Positions 1,574 through 31,315 of a stretch of DNA of 64,000 bases are shown here, one piece after another (positions within the stretch are counted from its first letter, which is position 1; every line of letters starts with the position of its first letter). A program made the position numbers and the translations under genes. Source of the stretch: Oscillospiraceae bacterium (GTDB lineage: Bacteria > Bacillota > Clostridia > Oscillospirales > Oscillospiraceae). Under the pieces are notes generated by a model. The model worked only from the letters and a program-made list of their open reading frames with translations, did not search any database and had not been told where the DNA came from. The DNA lies in contig JAFQCX010000037.1 of NCBI GenBank assembly GCA_017416245.1, positions 23,166-87,165 on the forward strand, given 5' to 3'.

Positions 1574-1602
1574 TTGTAACGCGGGCTTAAATATGCTATA
1601 AT
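1574..1602 (+). promoter_or_regulatory. Sigma-A promoter of the hdr-flx-frd-fum operon
   Basis: TTGTAA (1574-1579), 17-bp spacer, TATAAT (1597-1602), about 90 bp before the hdrB start. No similar promoter is seen inside the following 12 genes. Confidence 0.7.
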
Positions 1603-1695
1603 CTAATCAAAGGATTGTGAGAATGTTTTGCACATATTTCAAAATCTCTTGTTTACGCAAACTCTTTTTAAACTGTGAAATGTGAGGTCTGTGCT

Positions 1696-2481
1696 ATGAA
1701 GTATAGTTATTTCCCGGGCTGCACCCTGCGAAACAAAGCAAAGAATCTGGACGATTACGCAAGAGCCTGCGCAGAAAAGCTCGGTTTCTGTCTGGAGGAG
1801 CTGACCGACTGGCAGTGCTGCGGCGGTGTGTATCCTCTGGGTGCGGACGAGATCGCCAGCAAGCTGCCCTCTGTCCGGGCGCTGAATGCGGCAAAAGAAA
1901 AGGGGCAAGACCTGGTGGCGGTGTGTTCCGCCTGCTACCATGTACTGAAGCGGGTCAACGACGATATGGCAAATGTATCTGACATGCAGACCCGCGCCAA
2001 CAATTATATGGCGCTTTCCGAGCCCTATACGGGTGAAACCAAGGTGCTGCATTATTTGGAAGTGCTGCGGGATGTGGTGGGCTTTGACAATCTTAAAAAG
2101 CAGGTGGTCAATCCCCTGACCGGTCGGAAAATCGGCGCTTACTACGGCTGCTTGCTGCTGCGGCCCAGCTCTGTGATGGCCTTTGATGACCCTGAAAATC
2201 CCACCATTTTGGAGGATTTCATCCGGGCATTGGGCGCAGAACCTGTCGTATATCCCTACCGCAACGAGTGCTGCGGCGGTTACATATCCATCAAGGAAAA
2301 AGAGCAGGCAGGCGCGCTTTGTGAGAAAATCACCCAAAGCGCCGCCGGATACCAGGCAGATTGCCTTGTAACCGCTTGCCCCCTGTGTAAGTATAATCTG
2401 AGCAAAAACAGCGATCTTCCTATCGTCTATTTCACAGAGCTTCTGGCAGAAGCCCTGGGCATCAAGGAGGTGCAGGAATGA
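1696..2481 (+). CDS. hdrB: Heterodisulfide reductase subunit B-like (HdrB)
   Basis: A 261-residue protein of the HdrB/CCG family. Both cysteine-rich CCG motifs are complete: C9 ... CCGG (41-44) ... CSAC (77-80), and a second set with YYGC, NECCGG and CPLC in the C-terminal half. In methanogens these bind two non-cubane [4Fe-4S] clusters that split a disulfide. In bacterial Hdr-Flx complexes HdrB is the high-potential exit site. Intact motifs suggest it is catalytically or electron-transfer competent. ATG 1696 is chosen over GTG 1675 because the SD-like TGAGGT precedes it and the protein then begins at the conserved PGC motif. Its stop overlaps the hdrC start (ATGA). First gene of the operon. 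Confidence 0.88.
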   Translation: MKYSYFPGCTLRNKAKNLDDYARACAEKLGFCLEELTDWQCCGGVYPLGADEIASKLPSVRALNAAKEKGQDLVAVCSACYHVLKRVNDDMANVSDMQTRANNYMALSEPYTGETKVLHYLEVLRDVVGFDNLKKQVVNPLTGRKIGAYYGCLLLRPSSVMAFDDPENPTILEDFIRALGAEPVVYPYRNECCGGYISIKEKEQAGALCEKITQSAAGYQADCLVTACPLCKYNLSKNSDLPIVYFTELLAEALGIKEVQE

Positions 2482-2855
2482 ACAAGGTTGACGAAATCAA
2501 GCAAATCAGCGGGGTAAACCCTCTGAAATGTATGAAGTGCGGCAAATGCTCCGCTTCCTGCCCGTCTTTTAACGAAATGGACATCAAGCCCCATCAGTTT
2601 GTGACCTATGTGGTAAACGATGATGTGGAGGCGCTGGCCAATTCCAAATCTGCATGGAAGTGTCTGAGCTGCTTTGCCTGTATTGAGCGCTGCCCCCGGA
2701 ATGTGCAGCCCGGCAAGCTGATCGACGCTGCCCGGCAGATCCTTATCCGTCAGCGGGGGCAGGAAGGACTTTCTGCAGATGAAATCCCTGCTCTGTTGGA
2801 CGAGGATATGCCCCAGCAGCTTCTGATGAGTGCATTCAGAAAGTATCGGAGGTAA
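2478..2855 (+). CDS. hdrC: Heterodisulfide reductase subunit C-like (HdrC)
   Basis: A 125-residue ferredoxin-like protein with two CxxCxxCxxxCP [4Fe-4S] motifs: CMKCGKCSASCP (about 18-29) and CLSCFACIERCP (about 60-71). HdrC relays electrons between HdrA and HdrB. The start overlaps the hdrB stop by 4 nt and is preceded by AAGGAGGTG, so the two are translationally coupled, as usual for this pair. Confidence 0.9.
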   Translation: MNKVDEIKQISGVNPLKCMKCGKCSASCPSFNEMDIKPHQFVTYVVNDDVEALANSKSAWKCLSCFACIERCPRNVQPGKLIDAARQILIRQRGQEGLSADEIPALLDEDMPQQLLMSAFRKYRR

Positions 2856-2858
2856 CAA

Positions 2859-4847
2859 ATGCGTAGAATCGGTGTATTTGTGTGCCACTGCGGCAGCAAC
2901 ATTGCCGCAACAGTGGATGTGAAAAAAGTCGTGGAAATGGCTCTGCTAGAGCAGGGCGTTGTCCACGCGGAAGATTATCCCTATATGTGCAGTGAGGCGG
3001 GTCAGTCCCGCATTGCCGAGGCCATTCGGGAAAAGCAACTGGAGGGCATCGTGGTTTGCTCCTGCTCTCCCCGTATGCACGAGGCCACCTTCCGCAAGTG
3101 CGCGGAGCGAAACGGCCTGAACCCCTATCTGGTGGAAATTGCCAACATTCGTGAGCATTGCTCCTGGATCCATAAGGATATGCAGGAAGCCACGGAAAAG
3201 GCCGTCATTCTGATGCGCGCGGCTGTTGCCAAGGTGCATCTGAACGCTCCCCTGCTGGCCGGCGAAAGCGCCGTTACCAAGCGGGCGCTGGTCATCGGCG
3301 GCGGCATTGCCGGTATTCAGACTGCTCTGGACATCGCCGATGCCGGTTATCACGTGGATATCGTGGAAAAAGAGCCCTCTATCGGCGGCCGTATGAGCCA
3401 GCTGGATAAGACCTTCCCCACCCTGGACTGCTCCGCCTGTATTCTGACACCCAAAATGGTGGAGGCGGCAAGCCACGAGAACATCACCATACATACCTGG
3501 AGCGAAGTGGAAAAGGTTTCCGGCTTCGTGGGCAACTTTACGGTGGATATCCGCAAAAAGGCCCGCTATGTGAATATGGATAAGTGTACCGGCTGCGGTA
3601 TCTGTCAGGAAAAGTGCCCCTCCAAGAAGCCTCTGAACGAGTTTAACCGGGGTCTGAACAACCGCAGCGCCATCTATACGCCCTTTGCCCAGGCCATTCC
3701 CAATGTGCCTGTGATCGATGCAAGCGCCTGCATCAAGCTCAATACCGGCAAGTGCGGTATCTGCGAGAAGTTCTGTCAGGCCGGCGCTATCGACTATAAA
3801 CAGCAGGACGAGATCATCACCGAGCAGTATGGCGCCATTGTGGTTGCCACCGGTTTTGATACCATCAAGCTGGATAAGTACGGTGAATACGCTTACAACG
3901 AGAGCAAGGATGTGATCACCTCTCTGGAACTGGAACGTATTATGAATGCCGCCGGTCCTACCAAGGGTCATTTAGAGCGTCTGTCTGACGGCAAGGCTCC
4001 CAAGGAGATCGTGTTCATCCAGTGTGTGGGCAGCCGCTGCTCCGACGACCGGGGCAAGCCCTACTGCTCCAAGATCTGCTGTATGTACACCGCCAAGCAC
4101 GCTATGCTGATCCGGGACAAATACCCGGATACCAACGTGACGGTATTCTACATCGACGTCCGTACCCCCGGCAAGAACTTTGACGAGTTCTACCGCCGGG
4201 CAGTGGAGGACTACGGTGTCAACTATGTGAAGGGCCAGGTAGGCAAGGTCGCGCCCCAACCCGATGGCAGCCTGCTGGTTCACGGCGTAGATCTGCTGGA
4301 AAACAAGCAGATCCTCAAGAAAGCGGATATGGTGGTGCTGGCTACCGCCATTGAGCCCAATCCCGATGTGCGGAAGATCGCCACTATGCTCACCGCTTCC
4401 ATCGATACCAACAACTTCCTGACCGAGGCCCATCCCAAGCTCCGTCCCGTGGAATCCCCCACAGCAGGCGTGTTCCTGTCCGGCGTGTGCCAGGGTCCCA
4501 AGGACATTCCCGAAACCGTAGCCCAGGCGGGCGCGGCAGCGGTGAAGGTCATCGGCTTGCTTGCCAAGGATAAGCTGAAAACCAACCCCTGCACTGCTAA
4601 GGCAGACGAGCTGCGCTGCAACGGCTGCAGCCAGTGCGCCAACGTATGTCCCTATGGTGCTATTTCTTATGAAACCAAGCAGGTCAACGACCACGGCATC
4701 CGTGAGGAACGCCGCATTGCGGTAGTCAATTCCGCTCTGTGTCAGGGTTGCGGCGCCTGTACCGTTACCTGTCCCAGCGGCGCTATGGACCTGCAGGGCT
4801 TCTCTAACAGACAAATTATCGCGGAGGTGGATGCAATATGCCGGTAA
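2859..4847 (+). CDS. hdrA: Heterodisulfide reductase subunit A-like, electron-bifurcating flavoprotein (HdrA)
   Basis: A 662-residue HdrA of usual length. Visible parts: N-terminal Cys-rich domain (VCHCGSN at 8-14, CSCSPRMHE at 67-75), an FAD dinucleotide fold (VIGGGIAGIQ at 145-154), the inserted FeS region with CTGCGICQEKCP (about 243-254) and C191/C194 nearby, and a C-terminal pair of [4Fe-4S] motifs (CNGCSQCANVCP, CQGCGACTVTCP). In Hdr complexes the HdrA FAD bifurcates electrons between low-potential ferredoxin and a high-potential acceptor. It starts 3 nt after hdrC and overlaps the following mvhD-type gene by 10 nt. Confidence 0.92.
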   Translation: MRRIGVFVCHCGSNIAATVDVKKVVEMALLEQGVVHAEDYPYMCSEAGQSRIAEAIREKQLEGIVVCSCSPRMHEATFRKCAERNGLNPYLVEIANIREHCSWIHKDMQEATEKAVILMRAAVAKVHLNAPLLAGESAVTKRALVIGGGIAGIQTALDIADAGYHVDIVEKEPSIGGRMSQLDKTFPTLDCSACILTPKMVEAASHENITIHTWSEVEKVSGFVGNFTVDIRKKARYVNMDKCTGCGICQEKCPSKKPLNEFNRGLNNRSAIYTPFAQAIPNVPVIDASACIKLNTGKCGICEKFCQAGAIDYKQQDEIITEQYGAIVVATGFDTIKLDKYGEYAYNESKDVITSLELERIMNAAGPTKGHLERLSDGKAPKEIVFIQCVGSRCSDDRGKPYCSKICCMYTAKHAMLIRDKYPDTNVTVFYIDVRTPGKNFDEFYRRAVEDYGVNYVKGQVGKVAPQPDGSLLVHGVDLLENKQILKKADMVVLATAIEPNPDVRKIATMLTASIDTNNFLTEAHPKLRPVESPTAGVFLSGVCQGPKDIPETVAQAGAAAVKVIGLLAKDKLKTNPCTAKADELRCNGCSQCANVCPYGAISYETKQVNDHGIREERRIAVVNSALCQGCGACTVTCPSGAMDLQGFSNRQIIAEVDAICR

Positions 4848-5275
4848 CTGAAAATTGGAAACCCACCATCGTTGCCTTCTGCTGCAACTGGTGCAGCTAC
4901 GCAGGCGCAGACCTGGCAGGCTCCAGCCGTCTGGCCTACCCTGCGGATGTAAAGATCATCAAAGTGCCCTGCTCCTGCCGGGTCAACCCTATGTTCATTC
5001 TCCGTGCCTTTGAAAAGGGCGCAGACGGTGTGATCCTCTGCGGCTGCCACCCCGGTGACTGCCACTACTCCACCGGCAACTACTATGCCCGCCGCCGAAT
5101 GACCCTGCTGTTTAGCATGCTGGATTATCTGGGCGTGGAAGATGGACGCACCCGTGTGGAATGGGTATCCGCCGCGGAGGGTGTAAAGTTCTCCGAAACC
5201 ATGAATAGCTTTGTAGAAAAAGTTCGCGCCCTTGGCCCGAATGTAAGATTGGGGGATCTGCGATGCAAGAATTGA
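4838..5275 (+). CDS. flxD: MvhD/FlxD-like [2Fe-2S] electron-transfer protein
   Basis: A 145-residue MvhD-family protein, the adaptor that feeds electrons into HdrA. The cysteines of the family are present (CCNWCSYAGAD near the N-terminus, CSCR, CGCHPGDCHY). ATG 4838 lies within the end of hdrA behind GGAGGTGGATGCAAT. No hydrogenase or formate dehydrogenase gene follows. FlxA-like and FeS genes do, so the input is expected to be NAD(P)H rather than H2 or formate. Confidence 0.85.
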   Translation: MPVTENWKPTIVAFCCNWCSYAGADLAGSSRLAYPADVKIIKVPCSCRVNPMFILRAFEKGADGVILCGCHPGDCHYSTGNYYARRRMTLLFSMLDYLGVEDGRTRVEWVSAAEGVKFSETMNSFVEKVRALGPNVRLGDLRCKN

Positions 5276-6207
5276 TTGTAAGAGCGAAAGAACTTCTGGC
5301 ATCCGGCCAGGTTGCCCGTGTTTTAGGTTGGAAAAAGGGTGAGCACAGCTACGACCCTGAGGTTGCCTTTTTTAACGATGCCGAGAGTCTGCAGGATTTT
5401 GTATACGACGGCTTCTGCGGTGCAAACCTGAGCAAATATATGATCGAAGCCTCCAAATTGGAGGGTAAGACCCTGGTTTTCCTGAAGCCCTGCGACAGCT
5501 ACAGCTTTGTACAGCTTATGAAGGAGCATCGTGTGGATCGGGAAAAGGCTTACATCATCGGTGTGGGCTGCTGGGGCAAGCTGGATGTCCGTAAGCTGGG
5601 CGCTGAGGGCATTCTGGATGTGGAAATTGCCGGCGATGTGCTGAAGGTTTCCTCCCTGTACGGTGACAGCGAGGTAGCTTATAAGGACGCTATGCTGGAG
5701 CGCTGCCATGTGTGCAAAGGCAAGGAGCATAAGGTATTCGACGAAACGCTGCTGGAGTCTGCCGACACCGTGGATCTTGATCGTTTTGCCGAGGTGGAAA
5801 GAATCGAGGCTATGAGCCCCGAGGAGAAATTTGCCTACTTCCAGAGTGAGCTAAGTAAGTGCATCCGCTGCAATGCCTGCCGCAACGTCTGCCCCGCCTG
5901 CTCCTGCCGCAAGTGCGTGTTTGACAGCACTGCCTTCAACTCCGAGCAGAAGGCTAACACCACCTCCTTCGAGGAAAAGATGTTCCATATCATCCGGGCA
6001 TTCCATGTGGCCGGTCGTTGTACCGACTGCGGCGAGTGCAGCCGCGTCTGCCCTCAGGGTATCCCGCTGCACCTGTTCAACCGCAAGTTCATTAAGGATA
6101 TCAACCGTCTGTACGGTGAATATCAGGCTGGCGCTGATCTGGAGGAAAAGGCTCCTCTGACCAGCTTCCAAACCGACGATGCCGAACCCGGCGCAGACAG
6201 GAGGTAA
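5263..6207 (+). CDS. FrhB-like iron-sulfur protein, Flx complex subunit
   Basis: A 314-residue soluble protein. The N-terminal half resembles F420-hydrogenase beta (FrhB)-type proteins (FLKPCDSYSFVQLMKE near residue 70). The C-terminal third carries two cluster motifs, CIRCNACRNVCPAC followed by CSCRKC, and CTDCGECSRVCP. By position (FlxD, this, AsrA-like, FlxA) it corresponds to one of the FlxB/FlxC proteins of Desulfovibrio-type FlxABCD-HdrABC. I cannot say which letter. It overlaps the preceding gene by 13 nt, with GGGGGAT as SD. Confidence 0.75.
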   Translation: MQELIVRAKELLASGQVARVLGWKKGEHSYDPEVAFFNDAESLQDFVYDGFCGANLSKYMIEASKLEGKTLVFLKPCDSYSFVQLMKEHRVDREKAYIIGVGCWGKLDVRKLGAEGILDVEIAGDVLKVSSLYGDSEVAYKDAMLERCHVCKGKEHKVFDETLLESADTVDLDRFAEVERIEAMSPEEKFAYFQSELSKCIRCNACRNVCPACSCRKCVFDSTAFNSEQKANTTSFEEKMFHIIRAFHVAGRCTDCGECSRVCPQGIPLHLFNRKFIKDINRLYGEYQAGADLEEKAPLTSFQTDDAEPGADRR

Positions 6208-6212
6208 GGTCT

Positions 6213-7238
6213 ATGTATAAGATTCAAAAGGCTGATCTTCCCAAGCTGTACGCCTCCATTGCCGCAGAAAGCGACCTGTTTCTGCCGGTAAAGGTGGCAG
6301 ATCAGACCAATTTCGGTCTGTACACCGAAACCGCCGACGTGGATATCGACACCTTGAAAACCGTGAAGTCTGCCAAGGATATTTTCTTCCCCCAGAGCGA
6401 GACCCTTTACAAGGTCCGTCGGGAAAATGACAACTTCTCCATTGATGTTGAGCAGCACCGGACATCTCCCTTTGTGGTATTCGGTATCCGTGGCTGCGAT
6501 GTAAGAGCCATGACCGTTCTGGACAAGGTTTTTCTGTCCGAACCCATTGACAGCTACTATGCTGCCCGTCGGCAGATGGGCACCATCGTTTCCCTGGCCT
6601 GTGGCCGTCCCGACACCTCCTGCTTCTGCAAGGTGTTTGGCATCGACTGCGCTGAGCCCGAGGGCGATGTGGTTACCTGGCTGGTTGGGAAGGTACTGTA
6701 CTGGCAGCCCAAGACCAAGAAGGGCGAAGCTCTGACCGAAAAAGTCGCCTCCCTGCTGGAAAAGGCTGACGAGGCTATGGTGGAATCTGCCAAGAACGCT
6801 ATCCGCGCCATTGTGAAAAAGCTTCCCTACGCCAATCTGTCTTTGGAGAAGTGGGGCGCAGCCGCTGCTGACGCCAACTTTGATTCCAAGCTTTGGGAAG
6901 AAATGTATAAGCCCTGCCTGGCTTGCGGCACCTGCACCTTTGTGTGCCCCACCTGCCAGTGCTACGACATTAAAGACTATGACACCGGAAGTAGTGTCCA
7001 GCGTTACCGTTGCTGGGACAGCTGTATGTACAGTGATTTCACCATGATGGCTCACGGCAACAACCGCACCTCTCAAATGCAGCGCTTCCGCCAGCGCTTT
7101 ATGCACAAGCTGGCTTACTTCCCCGCAAACAATCAGGGTATGTTCTCCTGCGTCGGTTGCGGCCGGTGCGTTGACAAGTGCCCCAGTCACTTGAATATCG
7201 TCAAGGTCATCAAGGCCTTTGAAAAGGAGGGTGTATGA
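6213..7238 (+). CDS. AsrA/HydB-like 4Fe-4S protein, Flx complex subunit
   Basis: A 341-residue protein of the family that includes anaerobic sulfite reductase subunit A and the sulfhydrogenase beta subunit. It has an N-terminal domain with GIRGCDVRAM (about 93-102) and a C-terminal dicluster region with CLACGTCTFVCPTCQC (about 236-251) and CVGCGRCVDKCP (about 316-327). Such subunits wire an NAD(P)H flavoprotein to further clusters. The start follows AGGAGGTAAGGTCT and the end overlaps the flxA-like start by 4 nt. No AsrC-type siroheme subunit follows, so this is not a sulfite reductase operon. Confidence 0.78.
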   Translation: MYKIQKADLPKLYASIAAESDLFLPVKVADQTNFGLYTETADVDIDTLKTVKSAKDIFFPQSETLYKVRRENDNFSIDVEQHRTSPFVVFGIRGCDVRAMTVLDKVFLSEPIDSYYAARRQMGTIVSLACGRPDTSCFCKVFGIDCAEPEGDVVTWLVGKVLYWQPKTKKGEALTEKVASLLEKADEAMVESAKNAIRAIVKKLPYANLSLEKWGAAAADANFDSKLWEEMYKPCLACGTCTFVCPTCQCYDIKDYDTGSSVQRYRCWDSCMYSDFTMMAHGNNRTSQMQRFRQRFMHKLAYFPANNQGMFSCVGCGRCVDKCPSHLNIVKVIKAFEKEGV

Positions 7239-8104
7239 TGTCCGAGCCTATGCACGAATGTAAGTATAACCCCGGCTTTATGCGGGACACGCTGATCCCT
7301 CAGGTGGGTATCATCACCGATATCCGCACAGAAACGCCGGATGTAAAAACCTTCCGGGTAGAAGCCCCCAGTGGCGGCAAGCTCTTTGAGCATATGCCCG
7401 GACAGTGCGCCATGGTGTGCGCCCCCGGCGTGGGTGAGGCAATGTTCTCCATCACCTCCTCCCCCACCAACAAGCTGTATCAGGAATTCTCCATCAAGCG
7501 CTGCGGCGTGCTCACTGAACATCTGCACTCCCTGAAGGCCGGTGATGAGATCCTGGTCAGAGGCCCTTACGGCAACAACTTCCCTGTGGAAACAGAGCTG
7601 AAGGGCAAAAACCTGTTGTTCATCGCAGGCGGCATTGCGCTGGCGCCTTTGCGCAGCGTGATCAACTACTGTCTGGACAATCGGGAAAACTACGGTGATA
7701 TCGACATCGTTTACGGCTCCCGTTCCGCTGACGATCTGGTGCAGCGCAAGGAAATTGAAGAGGTTTGGTCCAAGATTCCCGGTGTAAATGTCCATCTGAC
7801 CATCGACCGGGAGCAGGAAGGCTGGGATGGCCACGTGGGCTTTGTTCCCTCCTATCTGCAGGAGCTGGCCTTTGACACCAACCGTACCGCAATTCTCTGC
7901 GGCCCTCCCATTATGATCAAATTCTGCCTGCAGGGTCTGAAAGAGATGGGCTTTGCTATGGAACAGGTATATACCACGCTGGAACTTAGAATGAAGTGCG
8001 GCGTGGGCAAATGCGGCCGCTGCAATATCGGCACCAAGTATGTCTGCAAGGACGGCCCTGTGTTCCGCTTTGACCAGGTAGACGAACTGCCTAACGAATA
8101 CTAA
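7235..8104 (+). CDS. flxA: FlxA-like NAD(P)H/FAD oxidoreductase (AsrB/HydG family)
   Basis: A 289-residue ferredoxin-NADP reductase-fold protein: FAD-binding barrel (about 25-115), nucleotide-binding Rossmann domain starting at LLFIAGGIALAPLRS (about 128-142), and a C-terminal [2Fe-2S] motif CGVGKCGRCNIGTKYVC (about 253-269). The family oxidises NAD(P)H at the entry of FlxABCD and AsrABC complexes. It is therefore the likely electron input of the operon. ATG 7235 is behind AAAAGGAGGG. ATG 7238 is an equally possible start and changes one residue. Confidence 0.82.
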   Translation: MMSEPMHECKYNPGFMRDTLIPQVGIITDIRTETPDVKTFRVEAPSGGKLFEHMPGQCAMVCAPGVGEAMFSITSSPTNKLYQEFSIKRCGVLTEHLHSLKAGDEILVRGPYGNNFPVETELKGKNLLFIAGGIALAPLRSVINYCLDNRENYGDIDIVYGSRSADDLVQRKEIEEVWSKIPGVNVHLTIDREQEGWDGHVGFVPSYLQELAFDTNRTAILCGPPIMIKFCLQGLKEMGFAMEQVYTTLELRMKCGVGKCGRCNIGTKYVCKDGPVFRFDQVDELPNEY

Positions 8105-8120
8105 GGAGGACAATACCGAA

Positions 8121-8798
8121 ATGGAAAACAATATGGTAAATGTCTATTTTTACGGTAAAAAATATTCTGTTCCCGGCGATCTGACCATTATGACCGCTAT
8201 GGAATATGCAGGCTACACCCTGACCCGTGGCTGCGGCTGCCGCCACGGCTTCTGCGGCGCTTGCGCTACTATCTACCGTATCAAGGGAAAGAACGAGCTG
8301 AAGACCTGCCTGGCTTGCCAGACACAGGTGCAGGAAGGTATGTATGTGGCTTCCATCCCCTTCTTCCCCACAGATAAGCGTACATACGACATCAACGAGA
8401 TCAAGGCCGATCAGCGGGTGATGATGGAGCTGTATCCTGAGATCTATGCCTGCATCGGCTGCAATGCCTGCACCAAGGCCTGTACCCAGAGTCTGAATGT
8501 TATGCAGTACATTGCCTATGCCCAACGGGGCGAGCTGGAAAAGTGCGCTGAGGAGTCCTTTGACTGCGTAGGCTGCGGCTGCTGCTCTGTTCGCTGCCCT
8601 GCCGGAATCAGCCATCCCATGGTGGGTCTGCTGGCAAGACGCCTTACCGGCAAGTACATTGCTCCCAAGTCTGAGCATTTGCAGACCAGAGTGGACGAGA
8701 TCAACTCCGGCGCTTACGACGAACTGATTGAAGCGATCATGCAAAAGCCCATTACCGAAATGCAAGAGCTTTACAATCACCGGGATATCGAGAAGTAA
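8121..8798 (+). CDS. FrdB/TfrB-like iron-sulfur subunit without CCG domain
   Basis: A 225-residue protein with a plant-type [2Fe-2S] domain (C40, C45, C48, C63, plus C38) and two [4Fe-4S]-type motifs (C111-C114-C117-C121 and C149-C152-C155-C159). This is the arrangement of fumarate reductase/succinate dehydrogenase B subunits, except that the C-terminal clusters look like two cubanes. Methanogen thiol:fumarate reductase TfrB continues with HdrB-like CCG domains; this protein stops before them. The operon instead encodes a separate HdrB. No cytochrome or membrane-anchor gene follows, so the enzyme should be soluble. SD AAGGAGG. Confidence 0.8.
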   Translation: MENNMVNVYFYGKKYSVPGDLTIMTAMEYAGYTLTRGCGCRHGFCGACATIYRIKGKNELKTCLACQTQVQEGMYVASIPFFPTDKRTYDINEIKADQRVMMELYPEIYACIGCNACTKACTQSLNVMQYIAYAQRGELEKCAEESFDCVGCGCCSVRCPAGISHPMVGLLARRLTGKYIAPKSEHLQTRVDEINSGAYDELIEAIMQKPITEMQELYNHRDIEK

Positions 8799-8810
8799 GG
8801 AGGGGACGAG

Positions 8811-10409
8811 ATGTTTACAGAATCTATGCTGGAATCCATCAAGAAGGTGGAAGCTACCCGTGCAGAAAGAATGGGCACGGAACCCCGCAGAATGACTGCT
8901 GAGGAAAAGAGTGAGCTGCTGAAAGCTTATCACCCCGACTACCGTCCCGAAGGCTTTAAGGAAATTCAGATCGGCCCTAACAAGGGTCAGAAGGCTCCCG
9001 TGGAGCTGGCAGATCTGCTCCACTCCAACAGCCGCCTGCTGAACGAAAATATTGACCTGTCCAAGATCGACTATGATGTGGATGTGCTGGTCATCGGCGG
9101 CGGTGGCGCAGGTTCTTCCGCAGCCATCGAGGCTCACGAAGCCGGCGCAAATGTTATGGTTGTTACCAAGCTGCGAATCGGCGATGCCAACACTATGATG
9201 GCTGAAGGCGGTATTCAGGCTGCGGACAAGGAGAACGACTCTCCCGTACAGCACTATCTGGACGCATTCGGCGGCGGTCACTTTGCTGCCCGTCCCGAAC
9301 TGCTGCGCCGTCTGGTTATGGAAGCCCCGGATGCTATCCGCTGGCTCAACGACCTGGGCGTTATGTTCGACAAGGACGAGGACGGCCGTATGGTAACCAC
9401 CCACGGCGGCGGTACTTCCCGCAAGCGTATGCACGCCTGCAAGGACTACTCCGGCGCAGAAATTATGCGTACCGTTCGGGATGAGGTGCTCAACCGCAAG
9501 ATCCCCGTAGTGGAGTTTACCTCCGCTGTGGAGCTGATCAAGGACGATAAGGGCCAGGTAGCTGGCGCTGTTCTGCTGAATATGGAAACCGGCGATTATA
9601 TGGTAGCCCGCGCCAAGACCGTTATCATCGCCACCGGCGGCGCAGGACGGCTTCACTATCAGAATTTCCCCACTTCCAATCACTACGGCGCTACCGCAGA
9701 CGGCCTGATCCTGGGCTACCGCGCCGGCGCGCCTCTGCTGTACCAGGATACCATTCAGTATCACCCCACCGGCGTGGCATACCCCAGCCAGATCTTTGGC
9801 GCGCTGGTCACAGAGAAGGTCCGTTCCATCGGCGCTATGCTGGTGAATAAGGACGGCGAAGCTTATGCCCATCCTTTGGAAACAAGAGATGTTTCCGCAT
9901 CTGCCATCATCCGCGAATGCGCCAATGGCAAGGGCGTGGACACCCCTCTGGGCAGCGGTGTTTGGCTGGATACGCCTATGATCGAGCTGCTCCACGGTGA
10001 GGGCACCATCGAAAAAAGAATTCCTGCAATGCTGCGTATGTACTTAAACTACGGCATTGATATGCGAAAAGTCCCGATCCTGGTCTACCCCACCCTCCAC
10101 TATCAGAACGGCGGTCTGGAGATCGGCGGCGATGGCTTCACCAAGGCCATCCCCAACCTGCTGGTTGCCGGCGAAGCCGTTGGCGGCATCCACGGACGTA
10201 ACCGTTTGATGGGTAACAGTCTGCTGGATATCATCGTTTTTGGCCGTAATGCCGGCAAGGCTGCTGCTGCGAAAGCCAAGGAAGTGAAGCTGGGTGAAAT
10301 GAATTTGGATCACATAACTGCCTATACTGAAGAACTGAAGAAGGCCGGTATCCGGCAGGAGGGTGTTTCTCCTCTGCTGCTTCCCAAATATGCCCGCCAC
10401 GAGAGATAA
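8811..10409 (+). CDS. Fumarate reductase flavoprotein-like subunit (FrdA/TfrA type)
   Basis: A 532-residue FAD protein of the FrdA/SdhA/NadB family. FAD fold at DVLVIGGGGAGSS (91-103). Active-site positions of fumarate reductases are kept: HPTG at 318-321, R359 in ETRDVSASAI, H430 in LHYQNGG, and R465 in GRNRLMGNSL. The His that binds FAD covalently in FrdA/SdhA is Asn (N127, in ANTMMAEGG), so FAD should be non-covalent, as in L-aspartate oxidase. An 85-90 residue N-terminal extension precedes the FAD fold, and the C-terminal helical domain is shortened. The neighbouring fumarase and FrdB-like genes favour fumarate reduction over aspartate oxidation (no nadA/nadC nearby). Confidence 0.82.
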   Translation: MFTESMLESIKKVEATRAERMGTEPRRMTAEEKSELLKAYHPDYRPEGFKEIQIGPNKGQKAPVELADLLHSNSRLLNENIDLSKIDYDVDVLVIGGGGAGSSAAIEAHEAGANVMVVTKLRIGDANTMMAEGGIQAADKENDSPVQHYLDAFGGGHFAARPELLRRLVMEAPDAIRWLNDLGVMFDKDEDGRMVTTHGGGTSRKRMHACKDYSGAEIMRTVRDEVLNRKIPVVEFTSAVELIKDDKGQVAGAVLLNMETGDYMVARAKTVIIATGGAGRLHYQNFPTSNHYGATADGLILGYRAGAPLLYQDTIQYHPTGVAYPSQIFGALVTEKVRSIGAMLVNKDGEAYAHPLETRDVSASAIIRECANGKGVDTPLGSGVWLDTPMIELLHGEGTIEKRIPAMLRMYLNYGIDMRKVPILVYPTLHYQNGGLEIGGDGFTKAIPNLLVAGEAVGGIHGRNRLMGNSLLDIIVFGRNAGKAAAAKAKEVKLGEMNLDHITAYTEELKKAGIRQEGVSPLLLPKYARHER

Positions 10410-10421
10410 AGAGGTGCGGTA

Positions 10422-11564
10422 ATGGAGTGGATCAAAAATTACTGGAGCAGTATTGTTACCAACGAATTGTTTATGGTTTTTGCAATCCTTGCTCTGGGCT
10501 ATATCATTGGACGAATCACCGTGTGTGGTTTGAATCTGGGCTCTGCCGGCGTTCTGCTGGTCGCTCTGGTGTTCGGCCATTTTGGCGTTACGATCCCCGA
10601 TGTAGTCGGAGATATCGGCCTTGTCCTGTTTGTAACGGCGGTAGGTCTTATTGCCGGTCCTAAGTTCTTTCGAAATTTCAAGATCAATGCCAAGTCCTAT
10701 GTCTTACTGGGCGTGATCATCATTGTGGCCGGCGCTTTGACTTGCCTGGCCGGTGTTTACCTGCTGGGTGTTCCGTCCGATGTAAGCGCAGGTCTGCTGG
10801 CCGGCGCACTCACCAGCACCCCCGGTCTGGGCGCTGCCAAGGAAGCGGTTGCCACCCCCGGTAACGCCGCTGCCGGATATAGCATTGCCTATATCTTTGG
10901 CGTTGTGGGTGTTGTCCTGTTTGTGCAGATCATTCCCAAGCTGCTGAAGGTGGATATGGAGAGCGAGCGGGAAAAATTCACCTCCGCTTCCGGCGTAGAG
11001 CTTAAGAGCGAAGGGAAAAAGCTGCTGGAATTGGACAGCATGGGCTTCTGCGCTCTGGCTATTACCGTTGTGCTGGGTATTTTCCTTGCCAAGCTGAAAA
11101 TCGGCAACTTCTCTCTGGGCAGCTCCGGCGGTCCTCTGATCTTAGGCTTGATCATCGGCCATTTCGGCAAGGTAGGCCCTGTTAGCCTGAAGGTTCAAAA
11201 GTCTGTGCTGGAAGCCGTTCGGGAACTGGGTCTGGTGCTGTTCCTGTTGGGTGCCGGCGTGGAAGGTGGCGCGGGTTTCCTGCAATGCCTGGCAGAAAAC
11301 GGCGGTGTTAAGCTGTTCATCGTTGGCGCGTTCATCACCCTGATTCCTATGTTCGTAGGCTATTTCTTCGCCAGAAAGATCCTGAAGCTGGACATTCTCA
11401 ATGCCCTGGGCTCTATCTGCGGCGGTATGACCAGCACACCTGCCCTGGGCAGTCTGATCCGGGTCGCAGGCACAGACGATGTGGCCGCTGCCTATGCAGC
11501 CACCTACCCCTTTGCGCTTGTATGCGTTGTGCTGGCTTGCCAGCTGATCGGAATGATTTCGTGA
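10422..11564 (+). CDS. AspT/YidE-family (AAEx) carrier, probable dicarboxylate exporter
   Basis: A 380-residue membrane protein with two homologous halves, each with the family signature: ALTSTPGLGAAKEA (about 127-140) and MTSTPALGSLIR (about 340-351). This is the aspartate:alanine exchanger family, which also contains the Corynebacterium succinate exporter SucE. Relatives such as YidE (about 550 residues) carry two TrkA_C domains between the halves. Here they are absent, which accounts for the short length. Placed between fumarate reductase and fumarase genes, export of succinate or exchange against malate or aspartate is the natural inference. SD AAAGAGGTGCGG. Confidence 0.78.
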   Translation: MEWIKNYWSSIVTNELFMVFAILALGYIIGRITVCGLNLGSAGVLLVALVFGHFGVTIPDVVGDIGLVLFVTAVGLIAGPKFFRNFKINAKSYVLLGVIIIVAGALTCLAGVYLLGVPSDVSAGLLAGALTSTPGLGAAKEAVATPGNAAAGYSIAYIFGVVGVVLFVQIIPKLLKVDMESEREKFTSASGVELKSEGKKLLELDSMGFCALAITVVLGIFLAKLKIGNFSLGSSGGPLILGLIIGHFGKVGPVSLKVQKSVLEAVRELGLVLFLLGAGVEGGAGFLQCLAENGGVKLFIVGAFITLIPMFVGYFFARKILKLDILNALGSICGGMTSTPALGSLIRVAGTDDVAAAYAATYPFALVCVVLACQLIGMIS

Positions 11565-11585
11565 TACATTAGGAGGAATTGATAA

Positions 11586-12428
11586 ATGCGTGAGATCCAG
11601 GTATCTGCCATCACAGATGTGGTGGAGAAGCTGTGTATTGAAGCAAATACGCACCTGCCCGGTGATGTAAAATGCGCCATTGAAACCTGCCGCGCCTGTG
11701 AGGACAGCAGCTTTGCCCAGAGCGTTTTGGATAAGATCATTGAAAACTATCAGATTGCCGACAATGAAAACGTTCCCATCTGCCAGGATACAGGTATGGC
11801 CTGTGTATTTTTGGAGATCGGACAGGATGTCCACCTGGTGGGTGGCGATCTGCGTGAGGCTGTGGACGAGGGCGTCCGCCGGGGCTACGACAAGGGCTAC
11901 CTGCGCAAGAGCGTAGTTGGCGACCCGGTTCGTCGCGGCAACACCGGCGACAACACCCCCGCTATGCTCTACACCGAGATCGTGCCCGGCGAAAATGTGA
12001 AGATCACCGTAGGCCCCAAGGGCTTTGGCAGTGAGAATATGAGCGCCATTCGGATGTTCAAGCCCTCCGCCGGTCTGCAGGGTATTAAGGATTTTATTCT
12101 GGAAACGGTGGAAACTGCCGGCCCTAACCCCTGCCCTCCTATGGTGATCGGCGTGGGCATCGGCGGCACCTTCGATAAGGCCGCCCTGCTGGCTAAGAAA
12201 GCCATTATGCGTCCTTTGGACACCCACCATCCCGATCCTTTCTATGCAGATCTGGAAAAGGAGATGCTGGAGAAGGTCAATGGGCTGGGCATCGGCCCTC
12301 AGGGCTTCGGTGGAAAAACCACCGCTATCGGCCTGAACATTGAAACTATGCCCACCCATATTGCAGGTATGCCCTGCGCCATCAACATCAACTGCCACGT
12401 GACCCGGCATAAAACGGAGGTGCTGTAA
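11586..12428 (+). CDS. fumA: Class I fumarate hydratase, alpha subunit
   Basis: A 280-residue protein of the FumA N-terminal/TtdA family, the oxygen-sensitive [4Fe-4S] hydro-lyases that interconvert malate and fumarate. Recognisable segments include PICQDTGMACVF (about 59-70), PKGFGSENMSA and the GIGGTFDKAALLAKKA stretch. Class I enzymes in anaerobes often split into alpha and beta subunits, as here: the beta gene begins right after this stop. L-tartrate dehydratase is the close alternative, but the fumarate reductase context favours fumarase. Strong SD AGGAGGAATTGATAA. Confidence 0.88.
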   Translation: MREIQVSAITDVVEKLCIEANTHLPGDVKCAIETCRACEDSSFAQSVLDKIIENYQIADNENVPICQDTGMACVFLEIGQDVHLVGGDLREAVDEGVRRGYDKGYLRKSVVGDPVRRGNTGDNTPAMLYTEIVPGENVKITVGPKGFGSENMSAIRMFKPSAGLQGIKDFILETVETAGPNPCPPMVIGVGIGGTFDKAALLAKKAIMRPLDTHHPDPFYADLEKEMLEKVNGLGIGPQGFGGKTTAIGLNIETMPTHIAGMPCAININCHVTRHKTEVL

Positions 12429-12986
12429 ATGGAAAAGCATATTACTCTGCCTCTGACCGAGGAGCTTGCCAAAAGCCTGAAGGCCGGTGATATTGTCTAT
12501 TTGACCGGCACGATCTATACCTCCCGGGATGCAGGTCACAAGCGGATGTGCGAAACCCTTGCCAAGGGCGAGCCCCTTCCCTTTGACCCTAAGGATGCAA
12601 CCATCTATTATGTAGGCCCCACCCCCGCCAAGCCCGGACAGGTCATCGGCTCTGCCGGTCCTACCACCTCCGGCCGTATGGATGCCTATGCCCCCACCAT
12701 GATGTCTGTGGGCGCAAGAGGTATGATCGGCAAGGGCGCAAGATTGCCCGAGGTAGTAGACGCTATGAAGCAGTATTCCGGTGTCTATTTCGGCGCTATC
12801 GGCGGTGCAGGCGCATTACTTGCCAAGTGCATTAAAAAGTGCGAGCTGATCGCCTATGAGGATCTGGGCGCAGAGGCTCTGCGCAAGCTTTATGTGGAGG
12901 ATATGCCTCTGTTCGTCATCATCGACAGTGAGGGCAATAACCTCTACGAATCCGGCAGACAAGAATATCTTGCCGCCCGGGGCTAA
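12429..12986 (+). CDS. fumB: Class I fumarate hydratase, beta subunit
   Basis: A 185-residue protein of the FumA C-terminal/TtdB family. It contains the YVGPTPAKPGQVIGSAGPTT segment (about 58-77), which lines the active site, and IGKGARLPE. It forms the [4Fe-4S] enzyme with the preceding alpha subunit, from which it is separated by 0 nt (SD ACGGAGGTGC lies inside the alpha gene). Last gene of the 12-gene operon. No clear terminator follows within the next 100 bp, so read-through into the GH43-like gene is possible. Confidence 0.88.
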   Translation: MEKHITLPLTEELAKSLKAGDIVYLTGTIYTSRDAGHKRMCETLAKGEPLPFDPKDATIYYVGPTPAKPGQVIGSAGPTTSGRMDAYAPTMMSVGARGMIGKGARLPEVVDAMKQYSGVYFGAIGGAGALLAKCIKKCELIAYEDLGAEALRKLYVEDMPLFVIIDSEGNNLYESGRQEYLAARG

Positions 12987-14684: not shown

Positions 14685-17093
14685 TTATTTGCAGTAGCGG
14701 ATGGTAACAGGTGACATAAGGCCACTGCTTAAGGTGTCCCGCTCAAACTGCTTGGCAACCTTATGGTAAGGTCCGATAATGTGATACGGAATCTCATCCA
14801 GCCACTTGGTTGCGGTATACTGATTGGCCGGCGTATTGGTCACCCGGACCAGCAAGGTGTTTTCCTTTTGCAGCTGCGACCGTTCTGCCGTGCAGGTAAA
14901 GGGCGCGAAGCAGCAGGTGCCAAGGGATTCCCCATTCAAGGTCACATCGCAGGAATAACCCACCTTGCCCAGATCGATCAGGATACTGTCCGGGATCTGA
15001 TCCAGGGTAAACTGCATACGGTACAGCACCGTGCCGGAAAAAGCCTCCCCGTACAGTTCACACCAGTCACCGGGTACCGCTGGCCGGTACTCCTCGCTGA
15101 TCTCGTGCTTTTCGAAGTTCTCATCTCCGATCACAAATGCAGATTCCCGCTTCATCTCAAACGCCTCAATGGAGATCTGCACATCGCCGTATTCTCTGCG
15201 CGCCTTTGCATCATAGCTTTCCGGCGTCACAAGGAACACCTTGCCCTCACCGGATGCCAAGGTCAGCGGCCTGCCGTCATAAACATATAACGCGCCGTCC
15301 ATGGCATCCAGCTCGTAAATATTGCCACATTCTCTGAACTGCACCGTGACCGAGTCGGTTTCGGTGTGCTCATTGGTAATGAGATAAAACATTCCGTTGT
15401 CTGCCCGGCGCTTTGCCAGATTGACCTTTACGCCCGTGATCTCTGCGCCCCGTTCTACCTTTTCAACCTCCCCGGCGCAGACCACCTGTCCGCCCTGGGC
15501 CTTGAACGCATCCAGCACGCTGCCGGCTGCTTTCGTAACTGTAACTGCTTCCGGGATGACAACCGACGTGTATGCTGCCGTGCCGGTCACCAGCGCTCCA
15601 TTTTTGATCCGGGCAGTTTCCAGGAAATCATCGTCAATAATGTCACAGGGTGTATGCCGGGCCTCCAGCGCAAACACCGCATCATCAAAGGCCTTTGCTG
15701 CCGCCTGCGCCTGGCTGCCGCCGGACCAAAGGTCGGTCATAGGCATATACACCGCGCATTTGTTTTCCGGCACACCCAGCGCCATCAGGTAGGACATTCT
15801 TGCCGTGTACCCACAGTAGTCCTTTAAATGCCGCCAAGTAGGCAGCAGCGGCATAAATGCAGGCCGGGCGTCCTTCCGATTCAGTCCTGAGAAAGAATAA
15901 TTAGTCAGCATAATGTTGATCATATTGATGCCACGGGACATTTGATACAACATTACATATCGCATCTGGTCAAAGGTCAGTCCTGCGCCGTAAATGGAAA
16001 ACGACTCGGACATGGTGTAAGGATTGCCGGTCTGGTTGGCTGCGGAACCGGCAAACCGGGGGAAGAAATGATTCTTCTGTCCGGGGAAGATCTGCCGCCA
16101 GATGGTATCGATACCCGGCATATCAAAGCAGCGCAGCTGGCGCATCAAATGGAAAAAGCCCTGGCCTTTGCTGAGGGTCACATGTTCATCGTCCAGGTGG
16201 CCGGTAAAGAGCAGGCCGTTGTCCCGGCACCAATTCCGGCACTTGAGGAAAAAGTTTTCCGCAAAGGTCTCTGCCAGCAGATCGTAGTAATCGATCCGAA
16301 GCTGCTTGCCTGCATCATCTACATCCGTATCCGGGTCGGTGACCAGCTCCGGCAAACGATCCAGCAGGTCATAGCCATAGCGCTCCCGGAACTTTTCCGT
16401 AAAGCCCTGGGGAAAACCAAACCGGCTGGCGAAGGGCTCGTCGGTAAACACCGCCACCATACTCTTGCCAAACATATGCCCCAGATGCTTCTTATACTGC
16501 TCGTGGGTCAGCCGAATGAACTCATCCACCGTCTCAGCATCGCTGATGTTGGGGAAAATGCCGCCACGGGGCTTGAAATAGTATTCCGTTATGGGTTTCT
16601 CGCTTTCAAATCCCGCCGCAATACGCTTTCCCTCGCAGAATGCCGCCACGGCGTTTTCTCCCGGAACATAGGGCGATGCCGTTTCACGGGTTGCCATCAG
16701 CTTGTACATCAAATGGGGCTTGTTCTTCAGCACTTGACCGCAGGCGCTGCCCGAGGGCCATCCGCCTTCATCGTACAGCCAAAGCTGCATTCCCTTTTCC
16801 GCTGCGTACTCCGCCGCATAGCGATATACGTCAAAATATGCTTCCGTCAAATAGTCGGGTGCCATAGTAGTGGGCATAGTATCGGGCCGGAATTCCTTGG
16901 GCTCCGGCAGAATGTAAAGCACCCGCACATCGTTTGCCGCATACTGGTCCAGCTGTTCCTTGATGCCCTCCTTGGTAACCGGCTGTGACCAGACCCAGCT
17001 GAAGGCCGGATAGAACTCCGTCCGCGGCGCCAGGAATCCCTCCCGTGAAAAGGCGGAATCGTTGACAGGCTGATTGGTATGGGAATATTTCAT
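14685..17093 (-). CDS. Glycoside hydrolase, GH106-like (putative alpha-L-rhamnosidase)
   Basis: An 802-residue cytosolic protein. The N-terminal half is a TIM-barrel hydrolase with WLYDEGGWPSG (about 105-115) and VAVFTDEPFASRFG (about 213-226), segments typical of GH106 alpha-L-rhamnosidases and related unclassified glycosidases. The C-terminal about 150 residues (DWCELYGEAFSGTVLYR onward) form a GH2-like sugar-binding jelly roll. No signal peptide is seen, so it should act on imported rhamnosylated oligosaccharides. rhaB and rhaA lie 12 kb away on the other strand, which supports rhamnose as product. SD AGGAGGTGCC precedes ATG 17093. It is transcribed alone, since terminators lie on both sides. 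Confidence 0.7.
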   Translation of the reverse strand: MKYSHTNQPVNDSAFSREGFLAPRTEFYPAFSWVWSQPVTKEGIKEQLDQYAANDVRVLYILPEPKEFRPDTMPTTMAPDYLTEAYFDVYRYAAEYAAEKGMQLWLYDEGGWPSGSACGQVLKNKPHLMYKLMATRETASPYVPGENAVAAFCEGKRIAAGFESEKPITEYYFKPRGGIFPNISDAETVDEFIRLTHEQYKKHLGHMFGKSMVAVFTDEPFASRFGFPQGFTEKFRERYGYDLLDRLPELVTDPDTDVDDAGKQLRIDYYDLLAETFAENFFLKCRNWCRDNGLLFTGHLDDEHVTLSKGQGFFHLMRQLRCFDMPGIDTIWRQIFPGQKNHFFPRFAGSAANQTGNPYTMSESFSIYGAGLTFDQMRYVMLYQMSRGINMINIMLTNYSFSGLNRKDARPAFMPLLPTWRHLKDYCGYTARMSYLMALGVPENKCAVYMPMTDLWSGGSQAQAAAKAFDDAVFALEARHTPCDIIDDDFLETARIKNGALVTGTAAYTSVVIPEAVTVTKAAGSVLDAFKAQGGQVVCAGEVEKVERGAEITGVKVNLAKRRADNGMFYLITNEHTETDSVTVQFRECGNIYELDAMDGALYVYDGRPLTLASGEGKVFLVTPESYDAKARREYGDVQISIEAFEMKRESAFVIGDENFEKHEISEEYRPAVPGDWCELYGEAFSGTVLYRMQFTLDQIPDSILIDLGKVGYSCDVTLNGESLGTCCFAPFTCTAERSQLQKENTLLVRVTNTPANQYTATKWLDEIPYHIIGPYHKVAKQFERDTLSSGLMSPVTIRYCK

Positions 17094-17109
17094 ATGGCAC
17101 CTCCTGAAA

Positions 17110-17123
17110 TGAAAGCACTTTTC
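17110..17123 (-). promoter_or_regulatory. cre-like site upstream of the GH106-like gene
   Basis: TGAAAGCACTTTTC resembles the CcpA/LacI-type catabolite operator (two half-sites around a CG-like centre; here the centre is CA). It lies between the candidate promoter and the start codon, a position suited to roadblock repression. Confidence 0.3.
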
Positions 17124-17138
17124 TTTTAGATTATCCCT

Positions 17139-17167
17139 ACTTTACCACCTTCCCCAACCCATGTCAA
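17139..17167 (-). promoter_or_regulatory. Candidate promoter of the GH106-like gene
   Basis: On the - strand, TTGACA (17167-17162), 17-bp spacer, TAAAGT (17144-17139). The -35 is perfect, the -10 is poor. Confidence 0.4.
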
Positions 17168-17181
17168 CAAATTTTACCTTT

Positions 17182-17213
17182 AAAAAATGCTCTGCTTTTT
17201 TATAGCAGAGCAT
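17182..17213 (-). terminator. Terminator of the beta-propeller gene
   Basis: Stem 17187-17195 with 17205-17213 (9 bp). On the - strand it is followed by TTTTTT. It isolates the downstream GH106-like gene from this one. Confidence 0.75.
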
Positions 17214-17243
17214 CTTTTTTATGACAGGAAAATAATGGGATCC

Positions 17244-18404: not shown

Positions 18405-18545
18405 ATAAAATCCTCCAATTTTACTTTGGCCAAACAATGGCGCGTGTTGTTCGCATACTACCAAATTTAATGATAAATGCTGTTAATGTGTTAAAATGTA
18501 AACATTTTTAATATTTTAACAATTATTCATTGGGGGGTCTTGATT

Positions 18546-20384: not shown

Positions 20385-20399
20385 AGTTTATCTCCTTTT

Positions 20400-22331: not shown

Positions 22332-22349
22332 AACGGCACCTCCATAGAC

Positions 22350-23420: not shown

Positions 23421-23550
23421 ACGATCCCCCCCCATATAGGCGTTTCCATTGCAATCTTCCAATTTCATTATATTGCAAGGCAGGCTCTGTTCCAATATAT
23501 AGTTCGCTTTGTATTTGTATAATTCGACTTTTATGCTTACCCTGCATTTT

Positions 23551-23579
23551 ATTATAATATGGGCAGCTTGTTTTAACAA
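23551..23579 (-). promoter_or_regulatory. Promoter of the GNAT-like/esterase/TIM-barrel operon
   Basis: On the - strand, TTGTTA (23579-23574), 17-bp spacer, TATAAT (23556-23551). The distance to ATG 23420 leaves a leader of about 120 nt. Confidence 0.65.
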
Positions 23580-23580
23580 G
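23567..23580. promoter_or_regulatory. Palindromic operator over the -35 box
   Basis: CTTGTTTTAACAAG is a 6-2-6 perfect palindrome covering the -35 hexamer of the promoter above, a typical place for a repressor site. The cognate regulator is unknown. Confidence 0.45.
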
Positions 23581-23605
23581 CATACGAAAAGCCACCACCC
23601 AAAGA

Positions 23606-25633: not shown

Positions 25634-25703
25634 AAAATCACCTCTGATTGGAATATTAGCACGAAAACAGCAATGTTTATATAGGAAAATCACCTGTGTC
25701 TTA

Positions 25704-25732
25704 TTGACAATCACGCATCTTTTTTCTATACT
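25704..25732 (+). promoter_or_regulatory. Promoter of the AraC-type regulator gene
   Basis: TTGACA (25704-25709), 17-bp spacer, TATACT (25727-25732). This near-consensus promoter ends only 18 bp before the TTG start, giving a very short leader. Confidence 0.8.
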
Positions 25733-25750
25733 GCAAGGGAGGTGATAACA

Positions 25751-31310: not shown

Positions 31311-31315
31311 GAAAT

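Follow-up and report, generated by a model that had tools for sequence, protein, structure and literature searches.

Organization of the operon

We analysed a 64,000 nt stretch of the Oscillospiraceae bacterium assembly GCA_017416245.1 (contig JAFQCX010000037.1, positions 23,166 to 87,165; in the following called the window). According to the listing of open reading frames (ORFs), its positions 1696–12986 hold an operon with the gene order hdrB-hdrC-hdrA-flxD-flxC-flxB-flxA-frdB-frdA-aspT-fumA-fumB. This operon probably encodes a soluble, quinone-free, flavin-based electron-bifurcating NADH:fumarate/ferredoxin oxidoreductase, together with a fumarase and a carrier that would feed and drain it. 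The twelve tightly spaced genes that a preliminary description of this DNA had named in this order are all present on the plus strand, with intergenic gaps of −13 to +21 bp. Most of them are preceded by a purine-rich stretch upstream of the start codon (by eye).

Gene families were assigned by Pfam-type domain matches and NCBIfam models (Table 1). For most of the Hdr, Flx and Frd proteins the scores fall short of the named-equivalog cut-offs of NCBIfam, and the domain and family matches fit the hdr, flx, frd, AspT and fum names given before. One name had to be sharpened: fumA and fumB are indeed fumarase genes, but they encode the two subunits of a single class I enzyme. The FlxABCD-HdrABC complex is defined by its set of subunits, and the operon holds all of them: FlxA with FAD and NAD domains, an MvhD-type FlxD, HdrA with FAD and ferredoxin clusters, HdrB, HdrC and two more Fe-S subunits, the 341-aa and 314-aa proteins that we take to be FlxB and FlxC of the Flx nomenclature. 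For hdrB, the ATG at 1696 was preferred over a GTG at 1675 as start codon. HdrA aligns over residues 3–660 to chain A of structure 5ODC (678 bits), and FrdA has an extra N-terminus of ~88 aa and no Succ_DH_flav_C match.

Table 1 Promoter-like site and genes of the operon, all within the window.
Feature	Positions	Strand	Description	Basis
Promoter-like site	1574..1602	+	TTGTAA-17-TATAAT, extended -10	motif scan, 10/12 match
hdrB	1696..2481	+	261 aa, two CCG domains (non-cubane cluster ligands)	family matches; aligned to solved HdrB chains
hdrC	2478..2855	+	125 aa, two [4Fe-4S], dicluster	family matches
hdrA	2859..4847	+	662 aa, FAD and [4Fe-4S] clusters, C-terminal ferredoxin domain	805 bits to HdrA2 (cut-off 1100, below)
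flxD	4838..5275	+	145 aa, MvhD/FlpD type	PF02662, 183 bits
flxC	5263..6207	+	314 aa, FlxC-like Fe-S protein	4Fe-4S dicluster; named by position
flxB	6213..7238	+	341 aa, FlxB-like Fe-S protein	Fer4_22; sulfhydrogenase subunit beta, 188.6 bits, below cut-off; named by position
flxA	7238..8104	+	288 aa, FAD/NAD-binding, [2Fe-2S]	PF00970, PF00175, PF10418
frdB	8121..8798	+	225 aa, [2Fe-2S] and two [4Fe-4S]	domain matches
frdA	8811..10409	+	532 aa, soluble fumarate reductase flavoprotein	FAD_binding_2; best NCBIfam model TfrA, below cut-off
aspT	10422..11564	+	380 aa, AspT/YidE-YbjL type permease	PF06826 twice; TIGR01625 over cut-off
fumA	11586..12428	+	280 aa, fumarase class I alpha subunit	NF004885, 417 bits (cut-off 276)
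fumB	12429..12986	+	185 aa, fumarase class I beta subunit	NF005310, 289.8 bits (cut-off 238)

Family matches within the twelve-gene operon revealed no membrane anchor, hydrogenase or DsrC gene, as had been described. The sole match to a membrane-protein family is the AspT-type permease, so that nothing in the operon corresponds to the anchor of a membrane quinol:fumarate reductase or complex II. This permease is a probable dicarboxylate (succinate) carrier, a substrate suggested by its family (PMC9527358).

Transcription from one promoter had been proposed as well. A promoter scan of the stretch found 12 sites versus 7.9 expected; the site listed in Table 1 is one of the two best matches and the only listed one with an extended -10 element. 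The match is good and a role as promoter of the operon is plausible, but it is no proof of function. A terminator-like hairpin lies at 1447–1482, on the minus strand of the scan.

A conserved nine-gene core in gut Clostridia

We surveyed 300 genomes of the GTDB family to which the window belongs for operon-type FrdB, defined by an identity of at least 66%, and identified it in 25 of them, the window's own genome included and one copy cut by a contig end. After these 25 the match score drops from 323 to 37 bits. The regions around 20 of the 24 others were fetched. All nine core genes from hdrB to frdA follow each other in the same order in 17 of these 20 loci, and the remaining three end at contig edges and agree as far as they go. 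Operon-type FlxD (73–100% identity) occurs in 23 of the 300 genomes, every one of them among the 25 FrdB-positive ones; in the other two (G167 and G185), in which FlxD was not found, the contigs carrying frdB are short. Nine further genomes of the family possess a more distant FlxD (50–57% identity) without operon-type FrdB, and three of the five other genomes searched from the window's genus have neither protein.

In a wider genome_contigs scan, at least 581 stretches encode a relative at an E-value of at most 1e-3, and we analysed the best 80 of these, to which all genome_contigs counts refer. Judged by their titles, these come largely from gut Clostridia (Lachnospiraceae, Oscillospiraceae and others). 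Blautia luti, B. wexlerae and Oliverpabstia intestinalis are among them, and the operon is carried by named strains of the two Blautia species. The nine genes stand in order in 64 of the 80 loci, counting one with hdrA in two pieces (L062), while the other 16 run into contig ends and show the same order up to that point. The order of the nine-gene core is conserved far beyond chance. The co-occurrence of hdrBCA, flx, frdAB and fum genes across Clostridia, suggested as a check in the preliminary description, was accordingly found, with fumAB near the core in 72 of the 80 loci. In Sporofaciens musculi (L125), the FrdA match contains four in-frame stops, which may be a sequencing error.

Cofactor and active-site residues

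The residue conservation was assessed in alignment rows drawn from the fetched loci and the window. All ten cluster cysteines of HdrB are kept in 102 of 102 rows, and an alignment to chains of 9SFI and 8RVV indicates that both non-cubane cluster sites are intact. The same holds for the eight cysteines of HdrC (100/100 rows), the eight 4Fe-4S ligand cysteines of FrdB (139/139), the cysteines of the C-terminal ferredoxin clusters of HdrA (97/97) and the four cysteines of the 2Fe-2S domain of FlxA (99/99), whose other motifs are largely conserved over the 99 rows. In FlxB, FlxC and FlxD most cysteines are invariant. The cofactor sites on the NADH side and in HdrA are thereby intact, in keeping with the Hdr-Flx machinery proposed before. 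Many FlxD/MvhD homologs of the phylum (e.g. G533:C37, G508:C37, G688:C1) contain one in-frame TGA inside the match, perhaps encoding selenocysteine; FlxD of the window has none.

This conservation bears on an alternative in which Hdr-Flx merely funnels NADH electrons to FrdBA without bifurcation and the energy is lost. Electron flow from NADH to fumarate is strongly downhill. Yet simple soluble fumarate reductases have far fewer subunits, and a full HdrA with its C-terminal ferredoxin ligands kept in every row would be needless in such an enzyme. We regard a non-bifurcating reductase as quite unlikely, despite the B. luti model of PMC12773636, which takes a NADH-dependent fumarate reductase.

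FrdA was aligned with its solved relatives. The fumarate-site residues are present, and the six catalytic His/Glu/Arg positions checked are invariant over 134 rows save one row at one His. At the position of the covalent-FAD His, FrdA has Asn in 134 of 134 rows, aligned opposite the His of E. coli SdhA (1NEK chain A), and so lacks this feature of membrane quinol:fumarate reductases and complex II. Soluble relatives with non-covalent FAD reduce fumarate and cannot oxidise succinate, as stated in PMC9557727. Because of this statement and the consistent replacement of the His by Asn, FrdA is predicted to work irreversibly, from fumarate to succinate only. A reverse, confurcating operation, in which succinate oxidation together with reduced ferredoxin would yield NADH, has a precedent in the confurcation proposed for the Desulfovibrio complex in fermentation (PMC10920352). 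The same Asn predicts no succinate oxidation, and B. luti excretes succinate (PMC12773636), so that this direction appears hardly credible.

Co-inheritance of Hdr-Flx and FrdBA

To describe how closely the subunits evolved with each other, we compared their distances by Mantel correlations. Coefficients range from 0.82 to 0.92 across the six core pairs tested, among them FrdA-HdrA (0.89, 79 loci) and FrdB-HdrC (0.92, 83 loci). For the genes around the core, the coefficient is 0.83 for a dehydrogenase described below, 0.66 for FumA (73 loci), 0.66 for fumB and 0.55 for AspT (42 loci). The permutation p is 0.001 in each case. Hdr-Flx and FrdBA are thus inherited together in the window's group, and their description as one joined unit stands.

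More distant FrdBA loci were collected from a phylum sample of 398 genomes, 39 of which encode FrdB at an E-value of at most 1e-20 (own genome included); all 38 other regions were fetched. In five of these, hdrABC and flxABCD are adjacent to frdBA, four times as frdBA-hdrBCA-flxDCBA and once as hdrCBA-flxDCBA-frdBA, and in two of the five frdBA follows an aspA/fumC-type gene (by eye). The link between Hdr-Flx and FrdBA hence occurs in three gene orders. On a FrdA tree (quick method, 80 rows) it needs three label changes (gains or losses), and the starred branches force three.

Another five loci (L179, L182, L184, L194, L196) have the arrangement hdrC-hdrB-frdB(-frdA). Their stretches gave no match to hdrA, and neither hdrA nor flx genes are matched next to them; they are a possible split-gene counterpart of thiol:fumarate reductase. 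Eleven loci have hdrA matches without a flxA match. In these eleven, which include L187 and L193, the Hdr genes next to frdBA are accompanied by additional HdrA-like matches. In L187 and L193 they are followed by genes resembling 2-oxoacid:ferredoxin oxidoreductase (kor) or succinyl-CoA synthetase (suc) genes (by eye), recalling the clusters for the reductive tricarboxylic acid (rTCA) cycle of tubeworm symbionts.

Neighbouring genes

The genes following the core are less constant. The AspT-type gene occurs in 42 of the 80 genome_contigs loci and in two of the 20 same-family loci, fumAB in one of the latter; since at least six of these 20 end inside frdA or no more than ~2.3 kb beyond it, some of the aspT and fumAB absences are unsure. 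We therefore rejected aspT and fumAB as defining parts of the unit. The dicarboxylate carrier of the preliminary description is present in the window, but it is an accessory of the operon.

Directly upstream of hdrB, on the same strand, a gene of the lactate/malate dehydrogenase (LDH/MDH) fold is found in 12 of the 20 family loci and 54 of the 80 genome_contigs loci. Two copies tested gave L-LDH models as best NCBIfam matches, at 331 and 328 bits and over the cut-off. The specificity position holds Arg in 67 of 67 copies, which we take to be the malate type. Lactate dehydrogenase was set aside on this residue despite the model scores, and malate dehydrogenase is our unsure assignment from this one position. 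A fumC/aspA-type gene lies upstream in 11 of the 20 family loci, the sole copy tested being a class II fumarase (fumC) over the cut-off. One locus (L049) has a phosphoenolpyruvate carboxykinase (PEPCK) gene downstream. PEPCK was found in 18 of the 25 operon genomes versus 10 of 18 same-genus genomes without the operon, a difference too weak to use, and not in the window's own metagenome-assembled genome (MAG), which is 66% complete.

The neighbours also speak to the question of whether FrdA acts on a substrate other than fumarate, with the fumarase incidental. Its solved relatives do include urocanate reductase and aspartate oxidase. TfrA is nevertheless its best NCBIfam model, albeit below the cut-off, the fumarate-site residues are conserved, and in several lineages the neighbouring genes encode fumarase or MDH-like, malic enzyme-like, pyruvate carboxylase-like or aspA-type proteins. 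Another substrate is very improbable.

Further downstream in the window, positions 14685–26545 hold a run of minus-strand ORFs whose products resemble an esterase and carbohydrate-active enzymes; 25742–26545, on the plus strand, encodes an AraC-like regulator. Probable rhamnose utilisation genes, namely a kinase, an isomerase and two aldolase-like ORFs, follow at 28788–33813 (all by eye).

Proposed electron path

From the gene content and order, their conservation, the intact residues and the co-inheritance we infer a bifurcating complex with the following path. FlxA would accept a hydride from NADH, and the electrons would pass via FlxB/FlxC and FlxD to the flavin of HdrA. There they would be split, one going to ferredoxin via the C-terminal HdrA clusters and the other through HdrC to HdrB. 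HdrB would hand its electron to FrdB, and FrdA would then convert fumarate to succinate irreversibly. The net reaction would be 2 NADH + ferredoxin(ox) + fumarate -> 2 NAD+ + ferredoxin(red) + succinate. With E0' values of +33 mV for fumarate and −320 mV for NADH (PMC5861303) and −400 to −500 mV for ferredoxin (PMC12773636), the coupled reaction amounts by arithmetic to about −33 to −53 kJ/mol, and the energetics allow it.

HdrB, HdrC and FrdB each match parts of the single TfrB model (NF004898, partial matches). Because of these matches and of the HdrCB-FrdBA clusters without an hdrA match in five of the 38 distant loci, the sequences suggest a direct electron link between HdrB and FrdB. HdrB also matches SdhE of 8-methylmenaquinol:fumarate reductase, at 140.3 bits and so below the cut-off of 500. 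A further-reaching interpretation has, in our judgement, about even chances. In it, HdrB is the electron-input subunit of the fumarate reductase and not a disulfide reductase, Hdr, Flx and Frd form one soluble complex that divides the electrons of NADH over fumarate and ferredoxin, and this quinone-free 'soluble fumarate respiration' represents a widespread, horizontally moving energy-saving route (with Rnf where present) in succinate-forming gut Clostridia such as Blautia.

Alternatively, the two halves could be coupled by a diffusible carrier: Hdr-Flx would reduce a small or protein disulfide at HdrB along with ferredoxin, and the thiols formed would drive FrdAB. HdrB retains both CCG motifs. 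FrdB is without a CCG match, and FrdAB alone has no evident thiol-oxidising site; coenzyme M and coenzyme B are not expected in these bacteria. In methanogens, Tfr reduces fumarate with thiols (Heim 1998, by its title as listed in PMC6315080), and the Desulfovibrio complex has been tied to DsrC (PMC10920352). A search for DsrC (PF04358) with a positive E. coli control returned none in the 25 operon genomes, 11 of which are at least 90% complete and 14 of which are <90% complete or >5% contaminated. We consider this thiol-linked coupling unlikely. The proposal of fumarate as the acceptor, made in the preliminary description, gains support from the absence of DsrC in this search, the intact fumarate-site residues, the fumarase in the operon and the genes for an MDH-like protein and a class II fumarase that many relatives carry upstream.

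Several observations weigh against a bifurcating Hdr-Flx-Frd complex. As both non-cubane sites of HdrB are kept, this subunit could in truth act on a small disulfide. The donor NADH (and not NADPH) and the acceptor ferredoxin are predicted from homology. Part of the co-inheritance may stem from a common species history. The operon of the window has no malate dehydrogenase gene next to it; a 53% homolog of the LDH/MDH-fold gene is encoded on another contig of the MAG. As to the outlet for ferredoxin, RnfC scored over the cut-off in 19 of the 25 operon genomes versus 17 of 18 same-genus genomes without the operon, by which we rejected a link between the operon and the occurrence of Rnf, and RnfC over the cut-off was not found in the window's 66% complete MAG. 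In 17 of the 38 distant FrdBA loci no hdr gene was matched within the sequence fetched, several of these loci lying near fumarase and malic enzyme, pyruvate carboxylase or multihaem cytochrome genes (by eye). FlxD was detected at an E-value of at most 1e-15 in 151 of the 398 phylum genomes, and four genomes with such no-hdr loci from within the window's larger FrdA clade (G366, G369, G594, G678) are not among them. Because of these loci and genomes, FrdBA can use another donor, and Hdr-Flx is not required everywhere. The NADH-dependent, ferredoxin-reducing soluble fumarate reductase of the preliminary description is partly supported, by the evidence for fumarate as acceptor, the intact NADH and HdrA machinery and the co-inheritance, with ferredoxin reduction and transfer from HdrB to FrdB as predicted steps; elsewhere in the phylum FrdBA also occurs apart from Hdr-Flx.

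Horizontal transfer

FrdA of the window is 82% identical to that of B. luti and 70% and 68% identical to those of the two genus members having it. For comparison, an RNA methyltransferase-like gene 42 kb off on the same contig (54737–55858) shows 72–76% identity to its counterparts in four of the five other genus genomes; for the fifth the value is 62%, and for B. luti 43%. DNA matches longer than 200 bp, among the 14 records compared, cover the operon and not its flanks. Because FrdA is far closer to B. luti than the nearby gene and the flanks are unmatched, the operon probably moved horizontally as a unit between these lineages, in one direction or the other.

Relation to known systems and implications

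The preliminary description had left open whether this combination was known. It is already in print: the 'succinate operon' of P. thermosuccinogenes comprises fumarase, Flx-Hdr, fumarate reductase and a possible succinate transporter, and it is up ~4-fold under CO2 limitation, not significantly for every subunit (PMC7282089). That paper refers the proposal of a bifurcating fumarate reductase to a 2019 preprint by Koendjbiharie and van Kranenburg. We therefore dropped the view that the combination is new. By its gene list, the P. thermosuccinogenes operon resembles that of the window in fumarase, Hdr-Flx, FrdAB and putative succinate transporter, with the same bifurcation proposed; the host is different and, unlike in the window, fumarase and transporter lie at opposite ends by locus tags. 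A related arrangement exists in tubeworm symbionts, where tfrAB is interspersed with flxABCD-hdrABC and the authors suggest a complex with direct transfer from Flx-Hdr to tfrAB (PMC6315080). Both clusters place fumarate reductase genes alongside Hdr-Flx, but that of the symbionts belongs to an autotrophic rTCA setting with korABCD.

The FlxABCD-HdrABC complex of Desulfovibrio shares all HdrABC and FlxABCD subunits and the proposed partners NADH and ferredoxin (Ramos 2015, as cited; PMC4215793, PMC10920352). Its proposed acceptor is DsrC, whereas the window has FrdBA within the operon. TfrAB of methanogens resembles the window in its FrdA-like flavoprotein and in combining FrdB- and HdrB-like parts, there within one TfrB chain, here in separate FrdB and HdrB proteins accompanied by HdrA and Flx. 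FrdA of the window scores 337.9 bits against the TfrA model, short of the cut-off of 718, and the TfrB score is also far below its cut-off. In the 8-methylmenaquinol:fumarate reductase SdhABE, too, an HdrB-like subunit (SdhE) serves a FrdAB pair; NCBIfam names SdhE the membrane anchor subunit of a quinol enzyme, while the window has HdrA/Flx with NADH and no covalent-FAD His.

The operon of the window thus belongs to an already proposed type. In the open-access PMC literature searched, which leaves out closed-access papers and supplements, we found neither a purification of an Hdr-Flx-Frd complex nor a link of this type to Blautia. For B. luti, fumarate reductase activities of 504–989 mU/mg with reduced methyl viologen, high transcription of frdAB and succinate as a main product have been reported (PMC12773636), and the main text of that paper contains no word beginning with 'hdr' or 'flx'. 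The measured activity cannot be claimed for the operon enzyme, as the B. luti assembly searched also has an sdh-type set and nadB (L211), and the strain studied there is perhaps not MSK.16.34. This second, complex-II-like set (L210:2572-5362) consists of an Fe-S subunit, a flavoprotein and a small hydrophobic-looking protein without family match, and adjoins a P-type ATPase-like gene.

If the complex bifurcates, each succinate formed would bring one reduced ferredoxin and consume one additional NADH, and re-oxidation by Rnf would give ~2 H+ per succinate. With the stoichiometries of PMC12773636 (2 H+ per 2 e- for Rnf, 3.6 H+/ATP, 0.42 succinate per glucose), this would by arithmetic, and assuming the operon enzyme at work, add ~0.23 ATP per glucose to the 3.05–3.15 calculated there. 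As the operon is present in named B. luti and B. wexlerae strains, the 2019 proposal could be tested beyond one thermophile. The operon occurs in many gut Clostridia, and the fumarate reductase of Blautia has so far been modelled as simply NADH-dependent (PMC12773636). If bifurcation holds, energy models of gut succinate producers would change. Soluble fumarate reduction would then take its place beside butyrate formation by Bcd-Etf.

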